Shown here piece by piece: positions 20,499 to 26,127 of a stretch of DNA of 64,000 nt. The position numbers were made by a program, and so were the translations under genes. The stretch is from Acidobacteriota bacterium. Its GTDB lineage: Bacteria; Acidobacteriota; Vicinamibacteria; Vicinamibacterales; UBA2999. The notes beneath the pieces are model-generated. The model saw only the letters and a list, made by a program, of their open reading frames with translations, had not been told where the DNA came from and searched no databases. The DNA lies in NCBI GenBank assembly GCA_030697165.1, contig JAUYQQ010000022.1, forward strand, positions 248,001 to 312,000, read 5' to 3'. How positions within the stretch are numbered: position 1 is the first letter of the stretch; every line of letters begins with the position of its first letter.

Positions 20499-21059
20499 CT
20501 AAAGCTTCTCGATCTTGCTGTAGAAGCCGCTGGTCTTCAGCGTGATCGTGACCGGTTCCCAGGTCAGGTTCTGCCAGAACCAGCCGTGGCGGCCATCGAA
20601 CGGTGCGTGAAACGTACCGTGATCGCTCGCGGCTTCTTCGCCCTTCGCGTAGCTGGCCTCGCCGCCGGTGCCATCTCCGTACTCACCGTGCATGTCGAAC
20701 TCGACGGTGCCGCCCGCGACCGTCCAACTGAACACGTAGCTGCTTCCCTTGACCATGGTCGCCTTGATCTCGACGCCCTCGCCGGGCTTTAGCGTCAGCG
20801 TCATCTCGTCGCTGCGAAAGGGCGCCTCGGGCCGGGTGACGGTGGCGGCGGCTTCGGGCGTCACCGGAATCGTCATGTCAATCGCCGACGCCGGCGGACG
20901 CAGCAGGCCGATCGCGTTGCCGATGCCCGTTGGGTCCATGCCGTACTCGGCCGGCAGGACGGCGGTAACCAGGACGGTCGCGGCGACCAGCAGGGCAATG
21001 CCAATCGCGCGCGCGAGCTGTGGCACGGTCGGCAGCGGTGGGGTGTTAGCAGAGGTCAT
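20499..21059 (-). CDS. Transmembrane anchor protein of a HupE-linked cluster
   Basis: A 186-residue protein with one N-terminal membrane segment (about residues 15-37, ARAIGIALLVAATVLVTAVL) and a beta-rich exported domain. That domain contains a LTLKPGEGVEIKATMVKGS segment and a WFWQNLTWEPVTITLKTSGFY C-terminus. Similar proteins are annotated as transmembrane anchor proteins and occur next to HupE/UreJ genes in metal-related clusters. The open frame continues upstream through the HupE gene's other frame; ATG 21059 is chosen because the membrane segment starts there and the HupE stop is 42 bases upstream. Role: probably tethers or stabilises an exported metal-handling partner. Confidence 0.75.
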   Translation of the reverse strand: MTSANTPPLPTVPQLARAIGIALLVAATVLVTAVLPAEYGMDPTGIGNAIGLLRPPASAIDMTIPVTPEAAATVTRPEAPFRSDEMTLTLKPGEGVEIKATMVKGSSYVFSWTVAGGTVEFDMHGEYGDGTGGEASYAKGEEAASDHGTFHAPFDGRHGWFWQNLTWEPVTITLKTSGFYSKIEKL

Positions 21060-21067
21060 GCGTTCCC

Positions 21068-21100
21068 AATCTGTGACTAATCGGTGTCTAATCTGTGGCC
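21068..21100. repeat. Intergenic AATCTGTG-type repeat (copy 1)
   Basis: Opens AATCTGTGACTAATCGGTG and closes TAATCTGTGGCC, filling the gap between the HupE and anchor genes. Related copies are at 31029-31057 (opposite orientation) and 31812-31840. Such AATCTGTG/GGCC-ended repeats recur in intergenic DNA of several phyla. Confidence 0.6.
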
Positions 21101-21781
21101 CTATTGCGTGGCGAAACCGACCAGTTGATAGCCGGCGAGGATGAAGCCGCAGGTCATCACGACGACGTTGGCGGCGAAGGCGTGGCGGTCGAAGCCGGGC
21201 GAGCGGCGCCAGAAGCCCATGGCGATCAGGATCGCACTTAGTCCCAGCACCTGTCCTAACTCCACGCCGACGTTGAAGGCGATGATGTTCGGCACCAGCC
21301 CCTCGGCCGACAGCGAGAAGTCTTGCAGCTTGGTGCCGAGACCGAGACCGTGAAACAGGCCGAAGATCCACACGGCCAGCTTGGTGTTGGGCTGAAAGCC
21401 GAACAGGCGCGTGAAGAAGCCCATGTTGTCGAGCGCCTTGTAGACCACCGACAGGCCGATGATGGCGTCGATCAGGAACGGGTTGACGTGCGTGCCGCTC
21501 ATCACCGCGTAGAGCAGCGTGATGCTGTGGCCGACGGCGAACAGCGTGACGTAGAGCGCGACTTCCTTGAGGCGGTAGAGAAAGAAGATCACGCCGAACA
21601 GGAACAGCAGGTGGTCGTAGCCGGTGACCATGTGCTTGGCGCCGAGGTAGATGAAGACGGCCAGTTGCCGGCCCTGCGTGATCAGGTCCTTGTCGCTGGC
21701 GGCAACGCCGTGCGCGGACACGCCGTCGGCGAAGACCGTCGCCAGGACGAGGAGCAGGACGAGGTAGCGTCGGGTGGTCAA
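21101..21781 (-). CDS. HupE/UreJ-2 family membrane protein
   Basis: A 226-residue polytopic membrane protein. A signal-like N-terminus ending GVSAHG is followed by about five to six hydrophobic segments. Family motifs are the histidine-rich GAKHMVTGYDHLLFLFGV (about 47-64) and FAVGHSITLL, and a third conserved FGLFHGLGLGTKL. These His/Asp residues line the presumed metal path of HupE/UreJ nickel/cobalt permease-like proteins. The start codon is TTG at 21781. The downstream anchor protein and nearby copper genes suggest a copper- or other metal-related function here rather than hydrogenase nickel supply; no hydrogenase or urease genes are present. Confidence 0.85.
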   Translation of the reverse strand: MTTRRYLVLLLVLATVFADGVSAHGVAASDKDLITQGRQLAVFIYLGAKHMVTGYDHLLFLFGVIFFLYRLKEVALYVTLFAVGHSITLLYAVMSGTHVNPFLIDAIIGLSVVYKALDNMGFFTRLFGFQPNTKLAVWIFGLFHGLGLGTKLQDFSLSAEGLVPNIIAFNVGVELGQVLGLSAILIAMGFWRRSPGFDRHAFAANVVVMTCGFILAGYQLVGFATQ

Positions 21782-21791
21782 TCGCCTGAAA

Positions 21792-21820
21792 TTCTACCCT
21801 CAACGCTCGTCTGGTATAGT
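21792..21820 (+). promoter_or_regulatory. Candidate promoter of the secreted Cys/His protein gene
   Basis: TTCTAC (21792-21797) is spaced 17 bases from TATAGT (21815-21820). The -10 has a preceding TGG and the leader to ATG 21833 is only 12 bases. The -35 is weak. Confidence 0.4.
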
Positions 21821-21832
21821 CGAAGAGTCTCG

Positions 21833-22195
21833 ATGGTCCGGTCCACCGCACATCTCCTCGTCATCATGATGCTCCTGGCGTCGGGCCGGTTGCTCGCGTG
21901 CGGGTGGGAGTGTATGGACGAGCTCGCGGCGCCTGAGGCGGCTTCGTGCCACACGGAATCCGCGCCGGCCACGGCGATCAACGGGGACCCTGCGCACGCG
22001 TGCCTTCCTGACGTCGCTGAACCGCTGGTAAGGGTCGTCAAGACGCTCGAGGCGCAGGACCTGGCGGCGGCTCCGTTAGCGATACCGCTGGCCAGGCCCG
22101 ACCGCGACCTCGCCCCTTCCAGTGCTCACCTGCATTCGTACCACCTCCGCCACGAGTCGCCGCATTTGGCGACACTCTCCGTCCTTCGCATCTGA
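21833..22195 (+). CDS. Secreted Cys/His-rich small protein upstream of copA
   Basis: A 120-residue protein not assigned to a family. The start at 21833 gives a signal-like hydrophobic stretch (HLLVIMMLLASGRLLA) and a 12-base leader after a promoter-like -10. The mature part has Cys at 23, 27, 39 and 57 (CGWEC, SCH, HAC) and a histidine-rich C-terminus (H99, H101, H104, H107, H111). This composition, and its place between HupE and copA, suggests metal binding in the periplasm, perhaps copper delivery or sensing. It is divergent from the HupE operon by 51 bases. Alternative: a lipoprotein with Cys23 as the acylation site (LLAC resembles a lipobox). Confidence 0.6.
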   Translation: MVRSTAHLLVIMMLLASGRLLACGWECMDELAAPEAASCHTESAPATAINGDPAHACLPDVAEPLVRVVKTLEAQDLAAAPLAIPLARPDRDLAPSSAHLHSYHLRHESPHLATLSVLRI

Positions 22196-22224
22196 TCGTC
22201 CGCTCCTGTCGCCATTGCCAGGAG

Positions 22225-22244
22225 GGCGGCGCTTTAGCGCCGCC
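22225..22244. terminator. TTTA-loop hairpin GGCGGCGC/GCGCCGCC upstream of copA
   Basis: An 8-bp perfect stem around TTTA, 29 bases after the stop of the secreted protein gene and 23 bases before the copA start. It belongs to the same family as the hairpins at 20476, 46595, 52814 and 53209. Confidence 0.5.
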
Positions 22245-22267
22245 GTAATCGAACGAGGATGCATCAG

Positions 22268-24121
22268 ATGATCAATCGACGTACGTTTGTTAAGGGACTT
22301 GCTGTGGGCGGCGCGGCCGCCGGCCTGGGCATGTGGCCGTCGCGCGGGTTTGCGCAGGTCGACTCGCGCACCAGCCAGGCGACGCTCACCGGCACCGAGT
22401 TCGACCTGCGCATTGCCGAATCGCCGGTGAACTTCACCGGCGCCCCTCGCATGGGCATTACCGTGAACGGCACCATCCCGGCGCCGCTCGTGCGCTGGCG
22501 CGAGGGCGACACCGTGACCATGCGCGTCGCCAACGCGCTTGATGAGGACACCTCGATCCACTGGCACGGCATGATCCTGCCGGCCAACATGGACGGCGTG
22601 CCGGGGTTGAGCTTTCACGGCATCCATCCAGGCGAGACCTTCACCTACAAGTTCGCCGTGCGCCAGGGCGGCACCTACTGGTATCACAGCCACTCGGGCT
22701 TCCAGGAGCAGCGCGGCCTGTATGGTCCGCTGGTGATCGATCCGCTCGAGCCCGAGCCGTTCCGCTACGACCGCGAACACGTCGTGCTGCTCACCGACTG
22801 GACCGACGAAGACCCTAAGCGCGTGTTCCGCAAGCTGAAGAAGCAGGCCGACTACTACAACCGCGATCGCCGCAACTTCGGTGACTTCCTGAAGGACGTC
22901 CGGGAGAACGGGTTCAAGGCCACGGTCGCCGAGCGGCGCGCGTGGGGCGACATGCGGATGTCGGCGACCGACCTGGCCGACGTCTCGGGCCACACCTACA
23001 CGCACCTCGTGAACGGTGTTCCCCCCGCGGGCAACTGGACCGGCCTGTTCAAACCGGGCGAGCGGGTGCGCCTGCGGGTGATCAACGGCTCGGCGATGAC
23101 CTACTTCGACGTCCGCATCCCGGGCTTGAAGATGACGGTGGTCGCCGCCGACGGCCAGTACGTGCATCCAGTGACGGTGGATGAGTTCCGCATCGCCACC
23201 GCCGAGACGTTCGATGTGATCGTCGAGCCGTCGGGGCAGGACGCCTTCACCATTTTCGCGCAAGCCATGGACCGCACCGCCTACGCGGCCGGCACGCTGG
23301 CCGTGCGCGACGGGCTGCAGGCACCGGTGCCGGCGCTCGATCCGCGGCCGCTGCTGAGCATGGCCGACATGGGCCACGGCGGACCAGGCCACGACATGGC
23401 GGCCATGGCGCCGCCAGCCGCCGCCGATCCCCACGCCGGACACAACATGCCGGCGGCACCAGCCGCGGTCGACCCCCACGCCGGACACAACATGCCGGCG
23501 GCGCCGGCCGCGGTCGATCCCCATGCCGGCCACAACATGCCAGCGGCACCGGCGGCGGCCGATCCCCACGCCGGGCACAACATGTCGGCCGGTGGTGGCG
23601 CCCAGATGCACCCGGACACCGAGAACAATCCGCTGGTGGACATGCAGACCATGGCACCGACCGCGAAACTCCACGATCCCGGCATCGGCCTGCGCGACAA
23701 CGGCCGCAGGGTGCTGACCTACGCCGATTTGAAGAGCACGTTCGCCGATCCCGACGGCCGCGATCCGGGACGCACGGTGGAACTGCATCTCACCGGACAC
23801 ATGGAGCGTTTCGCCTGGTCGTTCAACGGCATCAAGTTCGCGGACGCCGAGCCGCTGCGGCTCACTTACGGCGAGCGCCTGCGCATTGTGCTGGTGAACG
23901 ACACCATGATGACGCACCCGATCCACCTGCACGGGATGTGGAGCGATCTCGAAGACGAGGCGGGCAACTTCCTGGTGCGCAAGCACACCATCGACATGCC
24001 GCCGGGCACCAAGCGCGCCTACCGGGTACGCGCCGACGCACTGGGCCGATGGGCGTTCCATTGTCACCTGCTGTTTCACATGGAAGCCGGCATGTTCCGC
24101 GAAGTGCGGGTGGAGGAATAA
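22268..24121 (+). CDS. copA: Multicopper oxidase, copper-resistance CopA family
   Basis: A 617-residue periplasmic multicopper oxidase. ATG 22268 is preferred over 22259 because GAGG (22255-22258) is then 9 bases away. A Tat signal (NRRTFVKGLAVGG) opens the protein. Type 2/3 copper motifs HWHGM (about 98-102) and HSHSGFQEQRG (about 140-150) are N-terminal, and HPIHLHGMW and HCHLLFHMEAGM near the C-terminus complete the type 1/2/3 sites. Between domains lies a Met/His-rich insert of four DPHAGHNM repeats, the classical CopA copper-loading region. The family oxidises Cu(I) and sequesters copper. It overlaps the copB start by one base (TAATG). Confidence 0.95.
   Translation: MINRRTFVKGLAVGGAAAGLGMWPSRGFAQVDSRTSQATLTGTEFDLRIAESPVNFTGAPRMGITVNGTIPAPLVRWREGDTVTMRVANALDEDTSIHWHGMILPANMDGVPGLSFHGIHPGETFTYKFAVRQGGTYWYHSHSGFQEQRGLYGPLVIDPLEPEPFRYDREHVVLLTDWTDEDPKRVFRKLKKQADYYNRDRRNFGDFLKDVRENGFKATVAERRAWGDMRMSATDLADVSGHTYTHLVNGVPPAGNWTGLFKPGERVRLRVINGSAMTYFDVRIPGLKMTVVAADGQYVHPVTVDEFRIATAETFDVIVEPSGQDAFTIFAQAMDRTAYAAGTLAVRDGLQAPVPALDPRPLLSMADMGHGGPGHDMAAMAPPAAADPHAGHNMPAAPAAVDPHAGHNMPAAPAAVDPHAGHNMPAAPAAADPHAGHNMSAGGGAQMHPDTENNPLVDMQTMAPTAKLHDPGIGLRDNGRRVLTYADLKSTFADPDGRDPGRTVELHLTGHMERFAWSFNGIKFADAEPLRLTYGERLRIVLVNDTMMTHPIHLHGMWSDLEDEAGNFLVRKHTIDMPPGTKRAYRVRADALGRWAFHCHLLFHMEAGMFREVRVEE
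23426..23605 (+). repeat. 45-bp tandem repeats encoding DPHAGHNM units inside copA
   Basis: Units start at 23426, 23471, 23516 and 23561; each encodes DPHAGHNMPAAPAAV or a close variant (15 residues), the last diverging after HNM. The near-identical DNA implies recent expansion. The Met/His content suits Cu(I)/Cu(II) binding. Confidence 0.9.
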
Positions 24122-24903
24122 TGGCGGCCCTCACTCGGTTCGCTCTCACACTGTTGTTCGCGTGCGCGCTGGCCACCACCGCGGCTGCGCAGGTGACGCC
24201 CGTGCCGCCACCGACCGACGAGGATCGCCGGGCGGCGTTCCCGCCGGATCTGCAGGGGCATGCCGTACACGACACCGGCATCCACTACATGTTGCTGTTC
24301 GATCAGCTGGAATCCGAGTTCTCCGGCGCCGGCGTCGGCGCGCTCTGGGACACCAACTTATGGGTCGGCGGTGACGTGAACCGCATTTGGGCACGCACCG
24401 AAGCGGCCTACCAGGAGGGTGCGTTCGAGCATGCCGAGGGGCACCTGCTGCTCGGCCGCAACTTCTCGCGCTGGTGGACCGTGGTCGGCGGCGTGCGACA
24501 GGACTTCGCCCCCGGCGTCGGCCGCACCTGGATGGCGGTGGGCCTCCAGGGCCTGGCGCCACAATGGTTCGAAGTCGAGAGCACGTTCTACCTCGGCGAG
24601 TCGGCGCGAACGGCGGCGCGGCTTGAGGTTGAGTACGACCTGCTGTTCACCGACAAGCTGGTCATGCAGCCGCTGCTCGAGATGAACCTGTACGGCAAGG
24701 ACGATCCCGAGCGCGGCATTGGCGCCGGCCTGAGCACCATCGAATTCGGTGCCCGGTTCCGTTATGAAATCCGCCGTGAGCTGGCGCCCTACGCCGGCCT
24801 GGTGTGGCACCGCAAGGTGTTCGGCACCGGCGACCTGGCCCGCGAACAAGGCCACGACGTTGGCGGCTGGCGCCTGGTCACCGGTTTAAGGGTATGGTTC
24901 TGA
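24121..24903 (+). CDS. copB: Copper resistance protein B (outer-membrane CopB)
   Basis: A 260-residue CopB. A Sec signal (residues 1-22, ending AAAQ) is followed by a short linker and a beta-barrel domain. Family signatures are HYMLLFDQLESEF, DTNLWVGGDVNRIWARTEA, GRNFSRWWTVVGGVRQDF and the terminal aromatic strand LVTGLRVWF. CopB is thought to bind or export copper at the outer membrane as partner of CopA. It overlaps the copA stop by one base, so translation is coupled. A large inverted repeat follows at 24929. Confidence 0.95.
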   Translation: MAALTRFALTLLFACALATTAAAQVTPVPPPTDEDRRAAFPPDLQGHAVHDTGIHYMLLFDQLESEFSGAGVGALWDTNLWVGGDVNRIWARTEAAYQEGAFEHAEGHLLLGRNFSRWWTVVGGVRQDFAPGVGRTWMAVGLQGLAPQWFEVESTFYLGESARTAARLEVEYDLLFTDKLVMQPLLEMNLYGKDDPERGIGAGLSTIEFGARFRYEIRRELAPYAGLVWHRKVFGTGDLAREQGHDVGGWRLVTGLRVWF

Positions 24904-25011: not shown

Positions 25012-26127
25012 CTACTTGGCCATCAGCGTGAACTTCTGCACGCGGCGCCCTGTCGAGGCTTCGCCGACGTACAGGTTGCCCCGGCTGTCGATGCTCATGC
25101 CGTGCGGGCGCAGGAACTGGCCGACCTGCCGGCCGCCGCGGCCGAATTCGCCAATGACCGCCAGGTCGCTGCGGCGGAGGATCCAGACCTTGTGGTTGGT
25201 GCCGTCCGCCATGTAGAGAAACTGCTGCGCCGCGTCCTGCGACGGCACCAGCACAAACGCCGACCCCGACGACCGCGTCAGCGGCGCGATGATCTTCTCG
25301 CTGAGGAACGTGCCCTTTTGGTCGAACACCTGGATGCGGTTGCCGCGGCGATCGGCCACGTAGATCTTGCCGTCGCTCGTGCCGGTCAGGCCGTGCACGG
25401 TCGAGAACTGCGTGTTCGGCACGTTCGGATCGTTCGCCATCTTCTGCGTATCGTCGGGCGGCTTCCCGTAGGCGCCCCAGTGGCGCAAGTACTTGCCGGT
25501 GGCGCCGTCGACCACGACGACGCGGCGGTTGCGGTAGCCGTCGGCGATGAAGGCCTCGTTGGTCTTGGGATCGACCCAGATGCCGGCCGGCCCGCCCAGA
25601 AGCGTGGTGTCGTTGCTGCCGGCGACCTTGTCGAACTCACCAATTGTGAAGACCAGCTTGCCGGCGCGCGTGAACTTCATCACCCGGTGATGCGCGTGGC
25701 TGCCGACCCACACGAAGTCGTTGTGGTCCACGAAAATGCCGTGGGGGTTCTTCGGAAACTGCGACGGGTCCTCGGTCGCCGCATCACCCCAGCCCTGCAC
25801 CAGCTTGCCTTGCGGATCGAACTCGAGCACGACCGGCGCCGGCCGGCAACAGGTGCCCATCGGCGGCGTCTGCATTTCGTAGAGCTCTTCTTCGGTCAGC
25901 GTCTCGGGCAGGTGCGAGACCCACACGTGCTGTTTGGCATCGACAAACACGCCGGTAACGGAGCCCAGGATCCAGTTATTCGGCAACTCGAGCGGCCAGG
26001 AGGGATCGACCTGGAATCGGGGCGGGGGTGGCTGGGCCTGGGCATTTGCGGTCTCGCGCGGGGACCCGATGCCGCCAACCAGAATCGTCAGAAGAACAAT
26101 GAGTGAGAGGTGCCATTTCGTTCGCAT
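25012..26127 (-). CDS. Exported NHL-repeat beta-propeller protein
   Basis: A 371-residue secreted propeller. A Sec signal (residues about 1-30, ending ANAQA) precedes six NHL-like blades such as NPHGIFVDHNDFVWVGS, GGPAGIWVDPKTNEAFIADGY, VHGLTGTSDGKIYVADRRGNRIQVF and RPHGMSIDSRGNLYVGE. Sequence resembles peptidyl-alpha-hydroxyglycine amidating-lyase-like propellers, but I cannot see evidence for catalysis, so a binding or scaffold role is equally likely. It is convergent with copB and divergent from the PBP1A gene (57-base gap). Confidence 0.8.
   Translation of the reverse strand: MRTKWHLSLIVLLTILVGGIGSPRETANAQAQPPPPRFQVDPSWPLELPNNWILGSVTGVFVDAKQHVWVSHLPETLTEEELYEMQTPPMGTCCRPAPVVLEFDPQGKLVQGWGDAATEDPSQFPKNPHGIFVDHNDFVWVGSHAHHRVMKFTRAGKLVFTIGEFDKVAGSNDTTLLGGPAGIWVDPKTNEAFIADGYRNRRVVVVDGATGKYLRHWGAYGKPPDDTQKMANDPNVPNTQFSTVHGLTGTSDGKIYVADRRGNRIQVFDQKGTFLSEKIIAPLTRSSGSAFVLVPSQDAAQQFLYMADGTNHKVWILRRSDLAVIGEFGRGGRQVGQFLRPHGMSIDSRGNLYVGEASTGRRVQKFTLMAK

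Follow-up and report, generated by a model that had tools for sequence, protein, structure and literature searches.

A putative copper-sensing leader before copAB, set back to back with a HupE-anchor metal module in an acidobacterial genome

The locus considered here lies in a 64,000-nucleotide (nt) stretch of a genome of the Acidobacteriota (contig JAUYQQ010000022.1, positions 248,001 to 312,000 of the forward strand; hereafter the window) and comprises five genes in two divergent units, whose start codons stand ~50 bp apart. A membrane-anchored protein and a HupE/UreJ-type permease are encoded leftward, and a small exported cysteine-containing protein, CopA and CopB are encoded rightward. 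An earlier note on this DNA had described a copper locus combining HupE, an anchor protein, a small Cys/His exported protein, CopA and CopB, and all five genes were found. The permease matches PF13795, HupE_UreJ_2 (E 1.2e-52, 178.1 bits, cut-off 24.5), CopA carries three Cu-oxidase Pfam domains and scores 988.5 bits against TIGR01480 (cut-off 478.95), and CopB matches PF05275 (E 9.8e-75, 251.1 bits, cut-off 27). Profile searches returned no Pfam or NCBIfam family above cut-off for the anchor protein or the Cys/His open reading frame (ORF), and a scan of 21600-22400 revealed neither a sigma-70-type promoter nor an intrinsic terminator pattern. These genes probably form two back-to-back modules, a rightward leader-copA-copB operon and a leftward pair of a HupE_UreJ_2 permease and a membrane-anchored GOLD-like protein, with the following features.

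20499-21059, minus strand: anchor gene; its product partners HupE, commonly carries the annotation "transmembrane anchor protein", and has a predicted helix at residues 12-39 and a predicted GOLD-like beta-sandwich at 81-185.
21101-21781, minus strand: hupE, HupE_UreJ_2 permease (PF13795); His24 right after the presumed signal peptide (SA-HGV), and H50-x5-D56-H57.
21833-22195, plus strand: exported Cys leader ORF (120 amino acids) with hydrophobic signal, C23GWEC27, C57 (HACLP) 64 residues from the end, and an SVLRI-stop end; proposed copper sensor of copAB.
22193-22200, plus strand: TGATCGTC, the stop codon of the leader with the 5 nt after it; predicted pairing partner of GATGATCA, across the copA start codon.
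22225-22244, plus strand: perfect 8-bp hairpin GGCGGCGC-TTTA-GCGCCGCC in the leader-copA gap, read from the sequence; fold of the gap region z -2.6.
22255-22258, plus strand: likely copA Shine-Dalgarno (SD) sequence GAGG, 9 nt ahead of the ATG at 22268.
22267-22274, plus strand: GATGATCA, copA initiation region (ATG 22268-22270); predicted partner of the leader stop region.
22268-24121, plus strand: copA, a CopA/PcoA-type multicopper oxidase with a Tat signal; alternative in-frame ATG at 22259.
24121-24903, plus strand: copB, outer-membrane copper resistance protein B, overlapping the copA stop as TAATG.

The small protein of the rightward unit has four cysteines (CGWEC, SCH and HACLP) and seven histidines scattered after CGWEC, and it ends in SVLRI. 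It had been described as carrying four Cys and a His tail; the cysteines are as described, and the histidines are scattered. Orthologues in three genomes (G003, G006 and G008) retain the four cysteines and an S(V/I)LRI end. Leaders of this kind range from 119 to 206 residues in length, with the window protein and 18 of 24 leaders falling below 150, and their first Cys lies anywhere from 96 to 181 residues from the end. Despite this variation, 22 of the 24 have a Cys or Cys pair 64±2 residues before their C terminus. After thinning of relatives, this ruler Cys is present in 16 of 18 leaders, against a maximum of 8 in 5000 permutations, and five leaders outside the set used to define the ruler (G044, G039, G036, G027 and G009) also have a Cys at 62-66.

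Across 23 leader sequences the strongest columns are the Cys at -64/-63 and the terminal L-R-I, the last three residues being the most conserved of all, accompanied by a Val ahead of L-R-I and by an excess of Pro at about -10 to -13. Identity over the 58 residues from the ruler Cys to the end is 12.4%, compared with 9.9% after shuffling, and is thus near chance. At the end, the codons for Arg and Leu show synonymous variation, which argues that the peptide itself is under selection. A fixed Cys-to-end distance kept over unconserved sequence, together with the L-R-I end, is the anatomy of a regulatory leader and not of a folded carrier. As a matter of anatomy, the interpretation of the 120-residue ORF as a sensor whose translation switches on copAB is well supported, and we consider it probably correct.

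The same anatomy recurs before copA across the order. Of 41 copA operons collected from the order, three had no readable upstream region (contig edge or no N terminus), and a leader-like ORF was found upstream in 29 of the remaining 38. Twenty-five of these leaders lie directly before copA and four lie farther upstream, past a cytochrome-c-like ORF (CxxCH) that was named by reading in the three cases examined and by position only in the other (L086). A search blind to the end of the protein, which asked in all frames for a hydrophobic stretch followed by CxxxC, returned 27 unique ORFs; 22 of them are directly upstream of copA and 26 end in L-R-[I/V/L], while an L-[R/K]-[I/V/L] end occurs in 42 of 6665 frames with these leaders included. 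A rule combining a Cys at 60-68 residues from the end with an [L/I/F]-R-[I/V/L] end selected 30 unique ORFs in 5518 frames of acidobacterial loci, one in 7021 frames of the related-loci set, and none in 396 plasmid frames; the leader protein itself gave only five chance-level matches (E 6-7) against plasmids. The lone related-loci hit, in a Vicinamibacteria record (L140, 3213-10549), places an LRI-type leader, an outer-membrane channel, an adaptor, an RND pump, hupE and the anchor gene in one run, so that leader and HupE-anchor module probably belong to a single operon there.

Beyond the order, 13 copA-like loci of the phylum were examined, three of which (L225-L227) show a CopA match of only 37-43% and no copB. 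Three of the 13 have an exported Cys-motif ORF upstream, with ends NLRV, VIRI and VFRI, the last of these lying 670 nt upstream; a fourth candidate was listed by its PLRL end, and two of the four also carry YRPPP. In another acidobacterial group (G326; L237, 1798-11957), two divergent leaders ending in VLRI and NLRV were found, one followed by a channel, an adaptor and an RND pump (named by reading) and the other by copAB. Outside the Acidobacteria, 49 genomes were searched and 25 of them gave 30 copA loci; two of these loci had CopL-like ORFs, ending in RPPIA and RPPRFA, and no ORF that passed the filter had an LRI end. The leaders apparently form a distinct class in Acidobacteria.

Complementarity between the end of the leader and the start of copA offers a possible means of control. 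At 23 loci the pairing energy between the copA start region and the 20 nt that begin at the leader stop codon was computed, with the start picked by SD alone and one leader without an SD (L116) left out. Native duplexes had a mean of -15.0 kcal/mol, compared with -12.4 for segments taken from other loci (p 3.7e-4) and -11.6 for shuffled segments (p 3.7e-5), and the effect kept p=0.019 when the set was thinned to 17 loci. Segments shifted by -40, +30 or +40 nt had no effect, and shifts of 20 nt had weak ones (p 0.01 and 0.04). The window duplex, at -17.0 kcal/mol, ranks first of the 23. When single gaps were folded, three of four were more stable than shuffles (z -2.6, -3.6 and -4.7).

The genes, the conserved motifs, the Cys-to-end ruler, the HupE-anchor pair and the RNA complementarity (a trend over loci, strong in the window) are all read from sequence; translational pausing, copper as the ligand, the direction of control and the substrate transported by HupE are inferred. 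The leader would be an exported and probably short-lived protein whose translation acts as the sensor. When the ribosome reads the last codons, ~64 nascent residues would separate the end from the Cys/His site. This is roughly the length needed to pass through the ribosome tunnel and the Sec translocon, which would leave the Cys/His site and CxxxC barely exposed to the periplasm. If copper bound at that point, release at the L-R-I-stop end would be slowed, and the leader stop region, covered by the paused ribosome, would no longer pair with the copA start region. CopA, and the coupled CopB, would in this way be translated when periplasmic copper is high. The HupE-anchor pair would act as a widespread transition-metal module set beside various metal-resistance operons. 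We lean, by a narrow preference, toward the wider proposal that Acidobacteria have their own class of nascent-chain metal sensor, in which a signal peptide and CxxxC are followed by a Cys/His site ~64 residues short of the end and by L-R-I-stop as the pause element. Such a sensor would use this spacing as a ruler across ribosome and translocon; copper arriving on the periplasmic side of the emerging chain would hold the ribosome at the stop codon and thereby expose the start of either copA or an RND efflux operon.

Published parallels come from three systems. In CutF of Rhodobacter capsulatus, C69xxxC73 lies in a protein of 118 residues with a PEPEGPPPRL end (PMC8456105); with the stem-loop ahead of cutO in place, copper-dependent CutO requires the CxxxC, the proline motif at the C terminus and the signal peptide (PMC9973294). 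The window locus shares with CutF-CutO an exported CxxxC leader ahead of a multicopper oxidase, and in both the oxidase initiation region is predicted to be structured. The CxxxC of CutF is 46-50 residues from the end, whereas that of the window leader follows the signal, a separate Cys stands 64 from the end, and the end is LRI without PP. The authors of the CutF work reckoned its spacing of 45 residues as ~30 in the tunnel plus 17 across the membrane; by analogy, 64 residues would place the leader Cys site somewhat farther out than that of CutF. The published survey of CutF-like proteins asked for a length below 150 residues, a putative N-terminal signal peptide and PP within the last 15 residues (PMC9973294). 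The window leader has 120 residues and a hydrophobic stretch preceding CxxxC, but its end (RHESPHLATLSVLRI) has no PP, so that it does not belong to the CutF-like group under that definition. The survey also reports HupE/UreJ genes next to those CutF-like proteins whose only motifs are His motifs; unlike these, the window leader points away from hupE and into copAB.

The gene order of leader, copA and copB is that of Xanthomonas copLAB. The Cys cluster of Xanthomonas CopL (P0006, L209) differs in lying 42-56 residues from the end, the end itself is LIRPPIG, and sequence similarity to the window leader was not detectable (BLASTP E 8.4). CruR, of the DUF2946 family, similarly heads copper operons with a Cys motif at a fixed distance from a C-terminal motif, but has CXXC and RAPP 45 residues apart and acts by Rho-dependent termination (PMC9426467); the window leader gave no match to DUF2946 (PF11162) at E up to 1. 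By analogy, the window leader may work like CutF or CopL. Acidobacteria are unmentioned in the main texts of PMC9973294, PMC8456105, PMC9426467 and PMC10987492, and a search for literature on copper-resistance leader peptides in Acidobacteria found none.

Several observations weigh against a pausing leader that unmasks copA. A 2024 paper on arrest peptides states that translation arrest by CutF or CruR is yet to be demonstrated (PMC10987492). No Pro pair lies near the end of the window leader, although 16 of the 24 leaders do have PP, and the leader signal peptides were assessed by hydrophobicity alone, as a hydrophobic stretch preceding CxxxC. Two of the 24 leaders are off the ruler (G004 at 57 and G075 at 73), and the four candidates outside the order have their Cys at 60, 62/67, 68-69 and 70-71. 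No leader was detected at nine of the 38 readable copA operons, where the upstream DNA covered was often <=1.5 kb; among these nine is a second copAB of the window genome (L109, G000 C22:125976-127847), before which no CxxxC leader was detected. Strong complementarity appeared in only three of seven held-out operons (p 0.23; nine were held out and two could not be resolved), and the fourth single-gap fold (G008) was less stable than shuffles (z +1.1). Occlusion of the SD was not significant across loci (16 of 23, p 0.08) and was not taken as proof of masking; the window GAGG is even more open than in shuffles (fraction 0.94), though the start codon is paired. Taken with the pairing trend over loci, these weaker results make masking of the copA start region likely in many operons, as judged from predicted pairing, but not proven in all. 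The second copAB of the window genome lies ~120 kb before the window, and its CopA is 77% identical to that of the window.

The leftward pair was surveyed separately, in the best 80 of at least 589 pattern-matched public-genome stretches, which are not a random sample. The anchor protein was matched in 67 of 149 relatives and in 390 of 72,556 plasmid records, and in 79 of the 80 loci the gene immediately upstream of the anchor gene is hupE. Nickel/cobalt (Ni/Co) markers, meaning RcnA, NreA, RcnR-like or NreB-like proteins at >=50% identity, occur within 10 kb in 36 loci and CzcA-type RND pumps in 29; copA occurs within that distance in five, or eight when weaker multicopper-oxidase matches are counted, and in 26 loci none of the Ni/Co, copA or CzcA markers was found. 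The near-constant pairing and the excess of Ni/Co neighbours over copA identify HupE and its anchor as a widespread two-gene metal module that is not copper-specific. The His right behind the presumed signal peptide of HupE is invariant in 20 aligned sequences and present, by reading, in all 78 N-termini compared, 77 of which also have the H-x5-DH motif that is tied to nickel permeases.

A structure prediction for the anchor protein (mean pLDDT 90.6) gives one membrane helix and a beta-sandwich. Residues 80-180 align with the GOLD domain of a p24/TMED protein, one of the eukaryotic cargo-sorting proteins (7rrm_A; Z 13.0, root-mean-square deviation 1.9 over 95 residues, 16% identity; Foldseek E 6e-6), and the domain is accordingly predicted to have a GOLD-like beta-sandwich fold, a likeness of fold only. 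A 2025 paper describes HupE/UreJ-2 proteins with an N-terminal His on a fused copper-binding domain, called anglerase-HupE (PMC12537917). Like these, the window HupE is a PF13795 permease whose signal peptide is immediately followed by a His, but it has no N-terminal metal-binding domain, since the PF13795 match starts at residue 43, 19 residues after His24; a separate membrane-anchored GOLD-like partner is present instead. The fold search gave no support to the idea of the anchor as a split anglerase domain: GOLD domains led the matches listed, and none of those was described as an anglerase. A literature search for a transmembrane anchor protein paired with HupE found nothing. On two Rhizobiaceae plasmids, His-rich ORFs with RPPR near the end lie directly before hupE (L035, 4755-5174; L036, 4836-5180), with His clusters 47-54 residues from the end; these are candidate Ni/Co leaders.

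Linkage of the two modules is real but is found at the level of the genus. Among nine genomes of the window genus, hupE is divergent from leader-copAB in five (G000, G003, G005, G006 and G008, the G005 contig ending inside hupE), and among the loci read this divergence is confined to that genus. In G007 the HupE-anchor pair lies 3.4 kb upstream of a different copAB, one preceded by a cytochrome-c-like ORF; in G001 and G002 the pair was seen without copAB alongside, the G001 contig starting 0.5 kb upstream of hupE; and G004 has leader-copA and no anchor match. The conserved gene order proposed as a check on the locus holds in part of the genus and, among the loci read, was not seen elsewhere. 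That the gene set is no chance assembly is borne out by the constancy of the HupE-anchor pair and by the recurrence of Cys/His-like ORFs before copA across the order.

Four alternatives bear on this interpretation. The copper relay suggested in the earlier note, with HupE as importer or handler of copper, the anchor and the 120-residue protein as its carriers, CopA as its oxidase and CopB as its binding protein, draws on the divergent arrangement in five of nine genomes and on the HupE His, placed as in copper-binding anglerase-HupE proteins (PMC12537917). It is nonetheless very improbable, since the HupE-anchor pair sits beside Ni/Co genes more often than beside copA, a leader precedes copA in 29 of the 38 readable operons of the order while the hupE divergence was seen, among the loci read, only in the window genus, and the 120-residue protein is unconserved between its motifs and has the anatomy of a leader. 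A similar objection meets the proposal that the Cys/His protein is a true periplasmic copper carrier or buffer, its 64-residue spacing marking a small domain intolerant of indels: the protein is presumed to be exported and has Cys and His, and CutF itself was first proposed as a chaperone (PMC8456105), but a near-chance sequence between the motifs, conservation greatest in the last three residues and a stop-codon region complementary to the copA start make a carrier improbable.

A different output of the same leader is harder to set aside, though we regard it as rather unlikely. Pausing or release could govern Rho-dependent termination in the gap, as in CruR or TnaC, instead of unmasking the copA start; CruR provides the precedent (PMC9426467), several leader-copA gaps exceed 140 nt, and complementarity is missing at some loci, whereas the window gap measures only 72 nt and the duplex predicted there between stop and start regions is the strongest of the 23 loci. 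For the leftward pair, the chances are about even that HupE and its anchor are a nickel/cobalt module merely adjoining copAB in the window genus. The frequency of Ni/Co markers, the H-x5-DH motif, known from nickel permeases, and a Ni-induced HupE/UreJ gene in Sphingobium (PMC5557971) speak for this; the G007 pair near a different copAB, the retained His after the signal peptide, as in copper-binding anglerases, and the 26 loci where no Ni/Co, copA or CzcA marker was found speak against it.

Should the leader act as proposed, the sensing of periplasmic copper through translation of a nascent exported protein would be found in Acidobacteria as well, where the end motif is different and the ruler is both longer and strictly kept, and control of the inside ribosome by a metal outside the membrane would become directly testable through the Cys-to-LRI spacing. 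It would also account for the unannotated, fast-evolving ORF ahead of many copA genes, and would counsel caution in taking small Cys/His proteins beside metal genes for carriers, as they may be regulators.

Other features of these loci may merit attention. A small exported protein of an AHE...GTV type, its members alike by eye only, is divergent from hupE in G001 (L041, 86-484; no Pfam match for this copy) and lies directly upstream of copA in G113 and G130 (L103 and L107), and it is possibly another copper accessory protein. Just past copB, on the opposite strand at 25012-26127, an NHL beta-propeller protein is encoded, with a ScyF-type model match below cut-off. Within CopA, 23420-23590 encodes near-perfect tandem repeats of ~15 residues (DPHAGHNMPAAPAA, by reading), forming a His/Met-rich insert that resembles a metal-binding region.

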